A stretch of 64,000 nt of DNA, taken from positions 1 to 64,000 of the forward strand of contig NZ_NCST01000062.1 of assembly GCF_002088975.1 (NCBI RefSeq). Direction: 5' to 3'. Shown piece after piece: positions 37,594-44,106 of this stretch. Every line of letters begins with the position of its first letter. Position 1 is the first letter of the stretch. Both the position numbers and the translations under genes were made by a program. This DNA comes from Henriciella aquimarina (GTDB taxonomy: Bacteria; Pseudomonadota; Alphaproteobacteria; Caulobacterales; Hyphomonadaceae). The notes under the pieces are model-generated. The model saw only the letters and a list, made by a program, of their open reading frames with translations, ran no database searches and was not told the DNA's origin.

Positions 37594-38714
37594 TACTCGC
37601 CGGCGGGCTGGGCCAGCATGACGACATTGGCCGCACTGGAATTGGCGAAGACGAGATCGGTCAGCCCGTCGCCATTCATGTCGCCGAGCGCGATGCTGTA
37701 AGTGTTATCCCGCGTGTCCGGCAGGGTGATGGCGCTGAAGCGGGCACGGCCGTCATTGATGTAGATGCGGTTGCTCTGCTCGTCGGCGCCTTCGACAAGA
37801 TCGAGGTCGCCGTCGCCATCGAGGTCTGCGGCCGCGAGCGAGAGCACGGTGCGTCCGGCCTCGCCGACGGAGACGCCGGGCATGAAATTCCCGCCGCCAT
37901 CCCCGAGCAGCAGGGTGGAGACCCCGCTTGTGGAGCCGAGCACGATATCGGCATGGCCATCCCGGTTGAAGTCGCCGGCCACCGCCTGGCGGTGGTCGCC
38001 GGCGCTGCCCGAGATGGGGGCGTCCACCCAGTCATCTTCACCCATATTGAACAGGATGACGCTTTGGCCCCCATCACGGCAGGCGATTACAAGGTCCGTG
38101 CGCCCGTCGCGGTTGAAGTCGGCGGCCGCCACACCGGTTGAGCCTGTCAGCTCGCCCGGCATGACGAGCGGCGCGGCGAAGCTGCCATCGCCATTGCCCT
38201 CGAACAGGCGCACCCCGCCGCGGCGCTGGACGGTGACGAGGTCGGGCGTGCCGTTGCCTGTCAGGTCGCGTAGCAGCGCATTGCGGGCCGGGCCGTCGCT
38301 TTCGGGGATATCACCGGCCAGCGTAAAGGTCGCCTCGCCATCGTTCAGGAAGACCTGGGCTGGCACGCTGTCGCGCACGACGACGGCATCCACGTCGCCA
38401 TCGCCATCCACATCGCCGGCCCGCACGATATAGCTCGGACCATACTCGGTGCCGAGCGGGCGGGCGGTGGCGAGGCGGCCATTGCCGATATTGAAATAGA
38501 CGAGATCCGGCTGGGCCCAGTGGCGGCCATTGGCGAGAAAGACGTCGAGGTCTCCGTCGCCATCGGCATCCGCGAGATCGACCCCGGCGCTGAGGCGCGC
38601 TTCGAGGTCGAACAGGAGGAAGGCGTTGGCCTCATAGACAGGCGGTTCGGCCGAGGCCGCCAGGCCGGAAACCAGGGCGGCCGTGCCGGCAATAAGCGGG
38701 CGGGCTGGTCGCAT
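37593..38714 (-). CDS. Secreted FG-GAP/VCBS repeat protein, seven calcium-type repeats
   Basis: The 373-residue protein has a signal peptide (about 1-23) followed by seven repeats carrying the Ca-binding signature DxDGDGxxD or close variants: DADGDGDLDVF, DVDGDGDVDAV, DLTGNGTPDLV, DFNRDGRTDLV, DFNRDGHADIV, DLDGDGDLDLV and DMNGDGLTDLV. Seven FG-GAP repeats are expected to close one beta-propeller. It is a binding or adhesive protein outside the cytoplasm, without an enzyme motif. Its ATG overlaps the amidohydrolase stop (TAATG), and it is the second gene of a coupled three-gene unit. Confidence 0.9.
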   Translation of the reverse strand: MRPARPLIAGTAALVSGLAASAEPPVYEANAFLLFDLEARLSAGVDLADADGDGDLDVFLANGRHWAQPDLVYFNIGNGRLATARPLGTEYGPSYIVRAGDVDGDGDVDAVVVRDSVPAQVFLNDGEATFTLAGDIPESDGPARNALLRDLTGNGTPDLVTVQRRGGVRLFEGNGDGSFAAPLVMPGELTGSTGVAAADFNRDGRTDLVIACRDGGQSVILFNMGEDDWVDAPISGSAGDHRQAVAGDFNRDGHADIVLGSTSGVSTLLLGDGGGNFMPGVSVGEAGRTVLSLAAADLDGDGDLDLVEGADEQSNRIYINDGRARFSAITLPDTRDNTYSIALGDMNGDGLTDLVFANSSAANVVMLAQPAGE

Positions 38715-40777
38715 TACTCCTCCGGGGTTTGGATGTCCGGAACGTCCGTGAACGGCTCGATCCCGAAGGCCGGATAGATCTCGCTCGGGAAGTAGGCAAC
38801 GCCGTCCTTCATGACGAGGCGGATCGTCTTGATGGCCTTCAGGTCTTCGACCGGATTGCCCGGCACGAGGAAGAAGTCCGCCAGCTTGCCTTCATCGATG
38901 GAGCCATAGTCGTCGCCATGGCCGAGATAGGTGGCCGATTCCAGCGTGGCGCGCTTCAGGATCTCGCCGGGCGTGAAGCCGATATTCTGGTAGAGTTCCA
39001 GTTCGCGGTGGAGGTTGAACGAGCCGCCCATATCGGTGCCGAAGACGATGAAGATGCCGCGATCCTTCATCATCTGCAGCGCCTCGGTGATCTGGTCGAA
39101 GGCGCCGGCATAGGCGGCATCGTCTTCCGGCGTCTCGATCTTGGACCAGGCCTGCTTGGCCGAGCGCTGCACGCCGACCGGCATGTGCTCGATATAATCG
39201 GCGACGCCGGGCCGGAATTCGCCATTGCGCGACAGTAGCAGCGCTTCGTGGATGGCGTAGGTCGGATCGACGGCGACGTCATTGGCTTCCATCAGGTCGA
39301 GCGTTTTCTGGACCGGCTCGGAGGAGAGGTCGAGGTCCGGCAGGCGCTTCAGCGCGGTCAGACGCAGCAGGGTACGCGTGTCCTCCTCGGCATCGAGCAC
39401 CCAGCCCAGCATGATCTGGTTGATGTGGGTCAGCTCGTCATAGCCCGCCTCGATCATCTTGTCGGCGCGCGAGAAGGCGGGCACGTGACCGGCCACCCGC
39501 AGTCCGCACGCATGCGCAAGCTCCACCATTTCCGGCACCCATTCGCCCTTCATCGAATTGTAGATCTTGATCTGGAAGAAATGGCCCGCCTCGCACGAGG
39601 TGCGCACGGCCTCATTGGCTTCTTCCTGATTGGTGACGATGATGCCGTTATTGGAATTGTACGGGCTCTTGCCCTCGATGAAGCTCGACCGGATGATCCG
39701 CGGCCCGGCCAGCGTCCCCGTCTCGATCTTCGAGATCAGTTCGCTCAGCACTTCATTGTCATTGCCCATGTCGCGCACGAAAGTGATGCCGGCGGCGATG
39801 TTGAGCAGGGCATCCTCCTGGCTGATATGGCCGTGCATGTCGGAGAGGCCGGGCACCAGCGTGCCGCCCTTGCCGTCGATGACATATTCGTCGTCGCCCG
39901 GCGTGGCGTCGCTCGGCTCCACAGCGATGATGCGGTTGCCTTCGACCAGCACGGAAGACGGCTCGCTCAGGCTCATCGTGTCCGGCTCGAAGATGCGCAC
40001 ATTGGTGATGCGCACCGGCGCATCGAACGTATGCGCGGTGTCGGCCTGCAGCTGCTCGAAGCGCTCGGTGGAATAGCGCACCGCCATGTTCCGCAGGCGC
40101 TTGTCCTCGCCTTCATAGCCTTCGCGTGCGACGAGGAATTCCGGCGAAATCATCGCCAGGAAATCATTGTCGGCATCGAGCACGAAATAGGTCGGGTCCA
40201 GCTCCGGCCCGATCAGCGCATAGAAGGTCGCGGCCTCGTCCCCATCGGGGCCGGCAATCTGGAAGTCCTCAAGCGCTTCCAGCGTGAGCGAGCCGCCGGG
40301 CAGGGCGGGCAGCGTTTGGTCGTCGTCGGCGAGCAGGGCCCTGGCATAGATGACGAGATCATAGGGCGTGCCGGCCTGGGTGATGTACATGGACGGCTCG
40401 CTTACCGTGGCGCTGCCGGTGCCGGTCGAATCCGTCCAGCTCGCTTCGCCGTCTTCCATGGCAAAGGTCTCATCGACCGCATTGCCGAACGTGGTGTTGC
40501 CGGCCACGCTCCAGGCGAGCGGGAAGCCATCCTCGCCCAGCACGATGGACTCATCCATGGTCGGTCCGCGGCCATTGTTGCGGTATTCATAGTCGACCGA
40601 GATGGCCGGGCCGTCCTCGGTGACGACCATGTCGCCGATCTTCGTGCCGCTGACCATGATCGTATAGGTCGTTTCGCTCGCCGCCGTGGCCTCGCCGGTC
40701 TCGCTTTGCTGGGCCGTGGCCGCACTGTAGGCCGTCAGGGCCACCAGGCCGATGCCTGCGGTCAGGAACTGTCTCAT
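38714..40777 (-). CDS. Secreted metal-dependent amidohydrolase
   Basis: From the ATG at 40777 (GGGAGG site 8 bases upstream) the protein has 687 residues. It has a signal peptide (MRQFLTAGIGLVALTAYSA), an N-terminal accessory region of about 250 residues with beta-rich sequence, and an imidazolonepropionase-like amidohydrolase domain. The domain shows VPGLSDMHGHIS (HxH metal site), RVAGHVPAFSRADK and DELTHINQ, then FGTDMGGSFNLHRE with the last metal Asp, and YGSIDEGKLADFFL near the end. It is exported, probably to the periplasm, and may degrade small amides or peptides. It is the first gene of the operon with FG-GAP and YaiI. Confidence 0.9.
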   Translation of the reverse strand: MRQFLTAGIGLVALTAYSAATAQQSETGEATAASETTYTIMVSGTKIGDMVVTEDGPAISVDYEYRNNGRGPTMDESIVLGEDGFPLAWSVAGNTTFGNAVDETFAMEDGEASWTDSTGTGSATVSEPSMYITQAGTPYDLVIYARALLADDDQTLPALPGGSLTLEALEDFQIAGPDGDEAATFYALIGPELDPTYFVLDADNDFLAMISPEFLVAREGYEGEDKRLRNMAVRYSTERFEQLQADTAHTFDAPVRITNVRIFEPDTMSLSEPSSVLVEGNRIIAVEPSDATPGDDEYVIDGKGGTLVPGLSDMHGHISQEDALLNIAAGITFVRDMGNDNEVLSELISKIETGTLAGPRIIRSSFIEGKSPYNSNNGIIVTNQEEANEAVRTSCEAGHFFQIKIYNSMKGEWVPEMVELAHACGLRVAGHVPAFSRADKMIEAGYDELTHINQIMLGWVLDAEEDTRTLLRLTALKRLPDLDLSSEPVQKTLDLMEANDVAVDPTYAIHEALLLSRNGEFRPGVADYIEHMPVGVQRSAKQAWSKIETPEDDAAYAGAFDQITEALQMMKDRGIFIVFGTDMGGSFNLHRELELYQNIGFTPGEILKRATLESATYLGHGDDYGSIDEGKLADFFLVPGNPVEDLKAIKTIRLVMKDGVAYFPSEIYPAFGIEPFTDVPDIQTPEE

Positions 40778-40850
40778 CGATGAAGCCTCCCGTTTGACGC
40801 CTGCGAGCCGCAACCGTCCGATTCGTAATCAATTGACCTGTATCAAAGCA

Positions 40851-41934: not shown

Positions 41935-42020
41935 CCCCACGGCTTGACCGTGGGGGCCAACTCCATCCGCGCGATCTTGGACAACCGGCAGGAGCTGGGT
42001 GCCACGGCCAAGCCGTGGCA
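41935..42020. repeat. Pair of inverted REP-like hairpins
   Basis: Hairpin 1 is CCCCACGG-CTTGA-CCGTGGGG (41935-41955). Hairpin 2 is TGCCACGG-CCAAG-CCGTGGCA (42000-42020). Read on the opposite strand, hairpin 2 gives CCACGGCTTGGCCGTGG, which matches CCACGGCTTGACCGTGG of hairpin 1 in 16 of 17 bases. They are thus inverted copies of one palindrome separated by 44 bases, as in REPIN-like pairs. The CGGTCAAGCCG core recalls a palindrome common in alphaproteobacterial intergenic DNA. Confidence 0.6.
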
Positions 42021-42050
42021 AGGCGCTCGACTGGGGCTTGGGAGCGGCTT

Positions 42051-42111
42051 TGTCAAAAATAATTGACAGTCAAAAATTTTTGACTATCTGTCGTGTCAGA
42101 TATTTTTGACA
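42051..42111. promoter_or_regulatory. Three tandem operators WGTCA-N8-TGACW at a promoter
   Basis: Three 18-bp dyads occur in 61 bases: TGTCAAAAATAATTGACA (42051-42068), AGTCAAAAATTTTTGACT (42068-42085, perfect 18-bp palindrome) and TGTCAGATATTTTTGACA (42094-42111). TTGACA (42063-42068) inside the first is a consensus -35 promoter element. Binding of a repressor here would block the promoter. The XRE regulator encoded two genes downstream is the obvious candidate. The DNA is AT-rich in a G+C-rich genome. Confidence 0.75.
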
Positions 42112-42128
42112 TGACGGGGCCACAAACA

Positions 42129-42554
42129 ATGTCTTTTCACGAAAAGTCCGCCTGGGTGATGGGCGCGGTGCTGCTGATCGCGGCGGCCTGGTATTTCAGG
42201 ACTGTCGCCGCCGCCTCGGCCGCGCTGGGAGAAGTCGCGCCGCCGCTCCTGCCGCTGGTGGTCGGCTATATCGTCCTCATCATCGTTCTCTCCATCATCG
42301 CCCATATCCTTGTGGCGGTGACGAAGCCGTCGGAAGCCGACGACACGCTGGATGAGCGCGACCGCATCATTGCCAGCCGCGCCGGCTCGTTCGGCGGGGT
42401 GCTGCTCGGGGTCGGCGTGCTGACGGGGCTTGGCGGCTACCTGTTCGATTATGACGGCAACAAGCTCTTCCACATCGCCTTCGGCGCGATGATGGTCGCC
42501 CAGCTCGGGGAGTATGCCGCGAAGATCTGGTATTACCGCCGGGGGGTGGTGTGA
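42129..42554 (+). CDS. DUF2178-like four-helix membrane protein
   Basis: From the ATG at 42129 the product has 141 residues. A GTG at 42093 and an ATG at 42111 are also in frame, but the first would put operator DNA inside the gene. It has four hydrophobic segments (about SAWVMGAVLLIAAAWYF, PLLPLVVGYIVLIIVL, VLLGVGVLTGLGGYLF and HIAFGAMMVAQLGEYAAKI). An acidic cytoplasmic loop contains TLDERDRIIASRAGSF, the DERD-type motif of DUF2178. It is paired with an XRE regulator by a 4-base overlap (GTGA). Such membrane-protein/XRE pairs are widespread, but their role is unknown. Confidence 0.75.
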   Translation: MSFHEKSAWVMGAVLLIAAAWYFRTVAAASAALGEVAPPLLPLVVGYIVLIIVLSIIAHILVAVTKPSEADDTLDERDRIIASRAGSFGGVLLGVGVLTGLGGYLFDYDGNKLFHIAFGAMMVAQLGEYAAKIWYYRRGVV

Positions 42555-42771
42555 GCATGGCCAGGCGCCCGCCCATTACCAATCGCGTGAAGGAGTTGAG
42601 GGAGGCGCATGGCAACATGTCCCAGGCTGCCCTCGGCAAGGAAATCGGGGTGACCCGACAGACCGTCATCGCCATCGAGCAGGGGCGCTATTCGCCCTCG
42701 CTCGAAAGCGCCTTCCGCATCTCGCGGGTTTTCGGCGTCGGCGTGGAAGACGTCTTCGGCTGGGCAGGCGA

Positions 42772-42775
<4 letters not shown>
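42551..42775 (+). CDS. XRE-family HTH regulator
   Basis: The 74-residue (72 from the ATG at 42557) DNA-binding protein is a single Cro/CI-type HTH: NRVKELREAHGNMSQAALGKEIGVTRQTVIAIEQGRYSPSLE, with the recognition helix in RQTVIAIEQG. The GTG at 42551 overlaps the stop of the DUF2178-like gene, so the two are translationally coupled. Regulators of this small family usually bind the promoter of their own pair, and the three dyads at 42051-42111 fit. It has no sensor domain, so any signal probably comes through the membrane protein. Its stop overlaps the permease stop on the other strand by 4 bases. Confidence 0.93.
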
Positions 42776-43983
<1,208 letters not shown>

Positions 43984-44106
43984 GATGCAGGCTCCTCTCA
44001 CTGTCGGCGTGTTAACCCAATGCGGGAGGGGGGTATCTTGTTCCTGACCTGGCTTGCCCCGGTTTTAGTCGCCAGCCCTGTGGAAATCTGCTAAGGGTGG
44101 GGCGCC

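Follow-up and report, generated by a model that had tools for sequence, protein, structure and literature searches.

The window considered here, meaning the whole 64-kb stretch of Henriciella aquimarina DNA that was analysed, contains a two-gene operon for a small membrane protein and an XRE-type regulator, preceded by three closely set palindromes that overlap the presumed promoter. The features are as follows.

42051..42068, no strand: candidate operator dyad 1 (TGTCAAAAATAATTGACA), whose right arm is the -35 element
42063..42068, + strand: -35 element TTGACA within dyad 1, recognized from sequence and conserved in relatives
42068..42085, no strand: candidate operator dyad 2, a perfect 18-bp palindrome in the spacer between the -35 and -10 elements
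42085..42090, + strand: probable -10 element TATCTG, 16 nt past the -35 element, inferred, with 3 of 6 consensus letters
42094..42111, no strand: candidate operator dyad 3, directly past the -10 element and over the expected transcription start
42129..42554, + strand: four-helix membrane protein of 141 aa (AlphaFold2)
42557..42775, + strand: CylR2-like XRE regulator, 72 aa from ATG 42557 (74 aa with GTG 42551)

The dyads and the two proteins in the window

The initial annotation had placed three copies of WGTCA-N8-TGACW at the positions of dyads 1 to 3, with a perfect 18-bp palindrome in the middle, spacings of 17 and 26 bases between dyad starts and a TTGACA -35 hexamer inside the first copy, and a pattern search combined with shuffles confirmed each of these points. 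The motif has exactly three matches in the window against a shuffled expectation of 0.10, and none of 100 shuffles reached three; when one mismatch is allowed, there are five places against 2.46 expected, the two additional ones being at about the level of chance. Paired arm positions amount to 7 of 9 in dyad 1, 9 of 9 in dyad 2 and 7 of 9 in dyad 3. Dyads 1 and 2 overlap by one base, the outer dyads (1 and 3) are 43 bp apart, and G+C content is 32 % at positions 42045-42115 vs 64 % across the window. The probable -10 hexamer TATCTG is weak, and a promoter scan did not report it as a -10 element and chose a different hexamer pair.

Two other repeats were observed around the promoter. An extra dyad, TATCTG-N6-CAGATA (42085-42102), covers the -10 element together with the left arm of the third dyad; among near relatives, it was noticed by eye in some only. 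The other, an 82-bp inverted repeat (41937-42018), lies immediately upstream of the operators and has a CCACGG-N5-CCGTGG palindrome at each end, the two being 65 bp apart; this palindrome has 20 copies in the genome (reversed control, 0), of which 14 form seven pairs 65-67 bp apart, and the repeat is a dispersed, REP-like element. An Rfam microRNA match to the 82-bp repeat (27.9 bits against a cut-off of 84) is most likely due to chance.

The regulator matches the HTH_3 family with an E value of 1.9e-15 and 57.1 bits, against a Pfam cut-off of 23, which places it among the XRE/Cro-C1 proteins. In a single-sequence search, the closest solved chains are 9k3w (E 4.9e-14), described as 'Transcriptional regulator, PbsX family', and then CylR2 (1utx, E 2.6e-8); in a profile search, the match to CylR2 has an E value of 1.3e-17. 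Directly downstream of the regulator gene, a convergent gene at 42772-44001 encodes an ArsP-type permease (PF03773, E 4.3e-55).

For the membrane protein, an AlphaFold2 model built from 67 aligned sequences, own included, has a mean pLDDT of 94.8 and four long helices, at residues 3-33, 41-65, 76-107 and 110-138, in agreement with the four-helix membrane protein that had been proposed next to the XRE gene. Residues E5, D75, R77 and R137 are invariant among the 67 aligned members (own included), and E76 is nearly so. The ends of the predicted helices and the charges would put both termini and the middle loop in the cytoplasm, and hence these five charged residues as well. The family label DUF2178 that the protein had also been given is unsupported: the Pfam family (PF09946) has weak matches in 17 of the 67 aligned members, with a best E value of 7e-4, whereas the window protein is unlisted at E values up to 1, does not reach the gathering cut-off of 22.8 bits and comes from a genome with no DUF2178 match at E 0.1. 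No family above cut-off was found for it in Pfam, NCBIfam, PADLOC (E 0.01) or PHROGs (E 0.001). In structural comparisons, Foldseek returned a best E value of 5.2 and no clear solved relative, VIA-align gave a best Z of 6.2, in the range that the tool calls common for helical bundles, and a profile search of solved chains gave none at E 1; a relative may have escaped these searches.

Conservation of the gene pair and its promoter layout

The first survey covered 150 genomes, own included, 90 of which (again with own) encode the membrane protein, and the best locus from each of the 70 best-scoring genomes out of those 90 made up the first set. A CylR2-like XRE gene follows the membrane gene on the same strand in all 70 loci (own included); it lies within 120 bp in 63, and most of the remaining seven have another membrane gene in between. 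A further scan, of the genomes of 84,980 species, yielded 188 relatives from which 80 loci were kept; since 35 of the 80 repeat first-set loci over their first 300 bases, 45 held-out, non-overlapping loci were left, including representatives of the Sphingomonadales and of Gammaproteobacteria (Woeseiaceae, Alteromonas, Aliidiomarina, Gilvimarinus, Marinicella and others). The XRE gene is downstream in 44 of the 45, and within 120 bp in 42 of those 44. Because the held-out loci are homologous to the training loci, this result is a test on unseen sequence and not a case of independent evolution. Within the genus, a relative of the membrane protein occurs in 24 of 28 other genomes, and its gene looks like a core gene.

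The two proteins differ in conservation. In the first set, median identity to the window protein is 84.7 % for the regulator vs 45.0 % for the membrane protein, with the regulator higher in 69 of 69 loci (own excluded); the held-out medians are 76.4 % vs 42.9 %, and the regulator is again higher in all 44 loci having both genes. The same loci bear on where the regulator begins. The initial annotation had started it at GTG 42551, as a 74-residue protein coupled to the membrane gene by a GTGA overlap, which is probably wrong, the codons of relatives favouring the ATG at 42557, 2 bp past the stop codon of the membrane gene. The codon matching 42557 is ATG in 64 of the 70 loci (own included); among held-out loci it is ATG in 32 of 44 and GTG in 9 more, i.e. 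one or the other in 41. The ATG is, on this comparison, the more likely start.

Gene neighbourhoods (80 loci, 2.5 kb flanks) gave no functional clue. The largest neighbour cluster that looks real is a divergent gene of the class I lysyl-tRNA-synthetase type, present in 22 of the 80 loci, one member of which was checked (PF01921, E 6.3e-127); from a look only, the larger clusters consist of the membrane gene itself and apparent antisense readings of the module. Tandem, diverged membrane genes precede a single XRE gene in 12 of the 70 first-set loci (L005-L010, L012, L013, L016, L044, L057 and L059), the lesser copy having 25-37 % identity to the window protein.

To describe the promoters, an 18-position matrix was built from 45 exact dyad matches upstream of the first 70 loci only. 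The initial annotation had named an absence of the dyads upstream of orthologous pairs as a refutation, and its idea withstood this test: at least one dyad lies within 250 bp upstream in 43 of the 45 held-out loci (two in 31, three in 6 and one in 6). Across 114 non-redundant loci, training loci included, and at a threshold of 10 bits, 286 sites were found upstream vs one in a 700-bp stretch beginning at the start codon, and shuffles of the upstream 200 bp gave an expectation of approximately 1.2. Four sites were found in 9 of these loci, three in 54, two in 40, one in 8 and none in 3. L066, where a site scores 9.4 bits, and L096, which lies at a contig end, combine an XRE gene with no site at 10 bits.

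When anchored on the dyads, the promoters align. A dyad with TTGACA as its right arm occurs in 98 of the 114 non-redundant loci, and in 73 of the 114 a TA follows that arm at a spacing of 16-18, a count that comes without a chance estimate. Two layouts recur: three dyads set 17-18 and 25-28 bp apart, mostly in the Hyphomonadaceae, and two dyads mostly 41-47 bp apart (range 37 to 47), mostly in Gammaproteobacteria and Sphingomonadales. Three dyads are thus not the general rule among relatives, and two form the common core. Given this distribution of the two layouts, the shared core is one dyad over the -35 element and one at the presumed start, to which a middle dyad is added mainly in the Hyphomonadaceae, where most promoters have it, as against few elsewhere; L140 and L143 are among the three-dyad exceptions. 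Additionally, several Sphingomonadales have a second dyad with other arms (TGTAG...CTACA), seen by eye and missed by the matrix.

Reach of the candidate operators and a second pair in the genome

Beyond the window, the initial annotation had suggested a genome search for other WGTCA-N8-TGACW sites, and this gave five further places in the genome: one lies at a paralogous gene pair, three are inside reading frames of at least 100 aa, and the fifth, between such reading frames, is without the A+T core. The refined palindrome WGTMARAWATWTYTKACW, at up to one mismatch, occurs in the genome only at the three dyads; at two mismatches, there are three more places vs six for the reversed control. In 29 genomes of the genus (own included), 56 of 61 places with up to one mismatch are at this operon (reversed control, 1), as are all 32 in 15 further genomes picked among carriers of the module (reversed control, 3). 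Over the 44 genomes, 88 of 93 places are at this operon and five are elsewhere, as assigned by comparing coordinates with the module matches. Because of that proportion, the operon that encodes it is most likely the only one repressed by the XRE protein, within a search whose limit of one mismatch puts weaker or different operator sites outside its reach.

The dyads also accompany the XRE gene. In Alteromonas antoniana (L137), the membrane gene is present with neither XRE gene nor dyads in the 5.4 kb examined, and genomes G005 and G007, drafts estimated to be 94 and 90 % complete, lack an XRE gene at E 1e-15, any match to the membrane gene and any operator site; these three are the few cases of co-absence. 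Conversely, at locus L165 (genome G023) the XRE gene and the dyads remain next to a membrane protein that has diverged beyond the reach of the first search. Genome G026 has the module and no site at up to one mismatch, and the matrix finds three weaker sites there (locus L047).

The paralogous pair is located on another contig of the same genome, as follows.

C61:7439-8154 (locus L154, genome G000): paralogous XRE/membrane-protein pair, membrane gene then XRE gene
C61:7475-7657: XRE paralogue (E 1.6e-19), following the gene for a hydrophobic protein

Its regulator has 9k3w as the closest solved chain (E 2.5e-24). Its promoter contains three dyads: TGTCAAGGTAAGTTGACA, which is of the form TGTCA-N8-TGACA and includes a -35 element, TGACAAGCAGGCTTGTCT, which lies within the spacer, and TGTCAAGGAAACACGACA, which comes next. 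As in the window pair, then, one dyad covers the -35 element and further dyads lie in the spacer and near the start, but the operator core is AAGG...CTTG-like where that of the window pair is AAAAATTTTT. That the dyads are placed alike while their cores differ suggests that the genome has two operator codes insulated from each other. The two membrane-protein families are not significantly related by profile comparison, which aligns only 22 columns, at a DE motif, with a probability of 0.87 %. Dyads of the paralogous kind are found in several relatives as well, and a TGTCA-N8-TGACA dyad with up to one mismatch lies within 150 bp upstream in 12 of 30 paralogous loci, own included. In many of the remaining loci, the membrane gene seems, by eye, to lie close behind another reading frame, which may be why the dyad rule is weaker for this pair. 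By eye, too, the paralogous pair sits opposite a transporter-like gene.

A proposed feedback unit and the alternatives to it

The dyads are, with good confidence, the likely operators of a self-contained feedback unit made up of the XRE regulator and the membrane protein. In the proposed mechanism, the XRE protein, which is related in sequence to the CylR2 repressor, would bind, probably in dimeric form, to each 18-bp palindrome, for which the consensus across the family is roughly TGTMAAAAATWTTTGACA. Since dyads 1, 2 and 3 cover the -35 element, the spacer and the start site, respectively, the bound repressor would block RNA polymerase, and since 43 bp is about four helical turns, the outer dyads would lie on roughly the same face of the DNA. 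The operon of membrane gene and XRE gene would in this way be kept low by the XRE protein. The membrane protein, which is encoded on that same transcript, would modulate the regulator by titrating it or by releasing it upon a membrane-borne signal, by way of the conserved charged residues placed in the cytoplasm, and the level of the membrane protein itself would be the output. Both the identity of the binder and repression as the outcome of binding are strongly suggested by the sequence comparisons. What the initial annotation had put forward, an autoregulated pair with the XRE protein as the likely binder, is strongly supported by comparison in its main part, with dyads that are widely conserved, linked to the XRE gene and nearly confined to the operon, and loses the DUF2178 label, the GTGA overlap probably going as well.

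The closest known parallel is the CylR1/CylR2 pair of Enterococcus faecalis, a bacterium of a different phylum from the host of the window pair. There, too, a small CylR2-like XRE protein stands beside a small membrane protein, and the window regulator falls within the CylR2-like size of 66-75 residues. However, CylR2 controls a separate cytolysin operon, whereas here the regulator's own operon is nearly the sole site. The window pair thus appears to work like CylR1/CylR2 and to be set apart by the lack of a separate target operon in the operator search, for which reason it is not filed as a member of that system. In two papers, CylR1 is presented as a (putative) membrane protein that influences DNA binding by CylR2 (PMC5454873, PMC12304293), and the signal transfer from CylR1 to CylR2 is called unknown in the first of these, a 2017 review (PMC5454873). 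No description of the XRE/membrane-protein pair was recognized in open-licence PubMed Central, an absence that means little.

Taken by itself, the view of the membrane protein as a sensor or anti-repressor is only slightly favoured, in light of the charged residues conserved in it, the position of its gene within the operon and the parallel with CylR1/CylR2. More tentative, and on balance doubtful, is a regulatory loop without a regulon, a module widespread in proteobacteria in which a highly conserved XRE repressor would have a single target, the operon encoding both this repressor and a four-helix membrane protein that evolves faster. That membrane protein would act as the sensor and at the same time as the only output, serving as a homeostat of some membrane property, with cores that differ between the paralogues. 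If true, paralogous copies in one cell would be kept apart by their different operator cores.

Three other readings were weighed against the feedback unit. It is unlikely that the XRE protein activates its operon, or acts on it as a dual regulator, in place of simply repressing it: dyad 1 does reach upstream of the -35 element, and the extra dyad in the 9 of 114 loci with four sites is usually further upstream, but each of the three dyads lies on a core promoter element or comes after one, and a dyad within the spacer and another at the start are well placed for blocking. Rather improbable as well is a toxin-antitoxin-like unit, in which an XRE antitoxin would repress the operon it belongs to and neutralize the membrane protein, the toxin. 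An operon of two genes, one of them encoding an XRE protein, with tandem palindromes at its own promoter, for which binding is predicted, has the operator arrangement of type II systems, and the XRE protein weakly matches antitoxin and control-protein models. These matches, however, fall well below the cut-offs (36.7 vs 71.65 bits for a Y4mF-type antitoxin, 22.2 vs 47.7 for HigA and 17.4 vs 79 for HipB), and no toxin family was found for the membrane protein in the four collections searched. Moreover, the occurrence of the membrane gene in the genus is like that of a core gene, L137 keeps it with no XRE gene in the stretch examined, and tandem copies share one XRE gene in the 12 loci noted above. 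Finally, it is very improbable that an unrelated transcription factor uses the dyads and that the XRE protein binds elsewhere, for although the TTGACA/TGTCAA arms are simple in sequence and also occur in the -35 consensus, the dyads are nearly confined to this operon in 44 genomes, track the XRE gene and persist as the membrane protein diverges, and the paralogous pair has dyads of its own in this genome and in several relatives.

With the self-contained feedback unit as the preferred reading, the palindromes become a defined operator family, found in Alpha- and Gammaproteobacteria, with a predicted regulator, a promoter layout and a single target. One operator set with one target in a marine bacterium would also offer a clean setting for studying how a signal passes from a membrane protein to an XRE regulator. 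As a minor observation, the amidohydrolase gene of the window (38714-40813) has no operator-like site at up to two mismatches, and a lone operator-like site, TGTAAGAAATATTGGACA, lies beside a gene that looks amidohydrolase-like by eye in two close relatives (L166:1455-1472 and L167:1535-1552).
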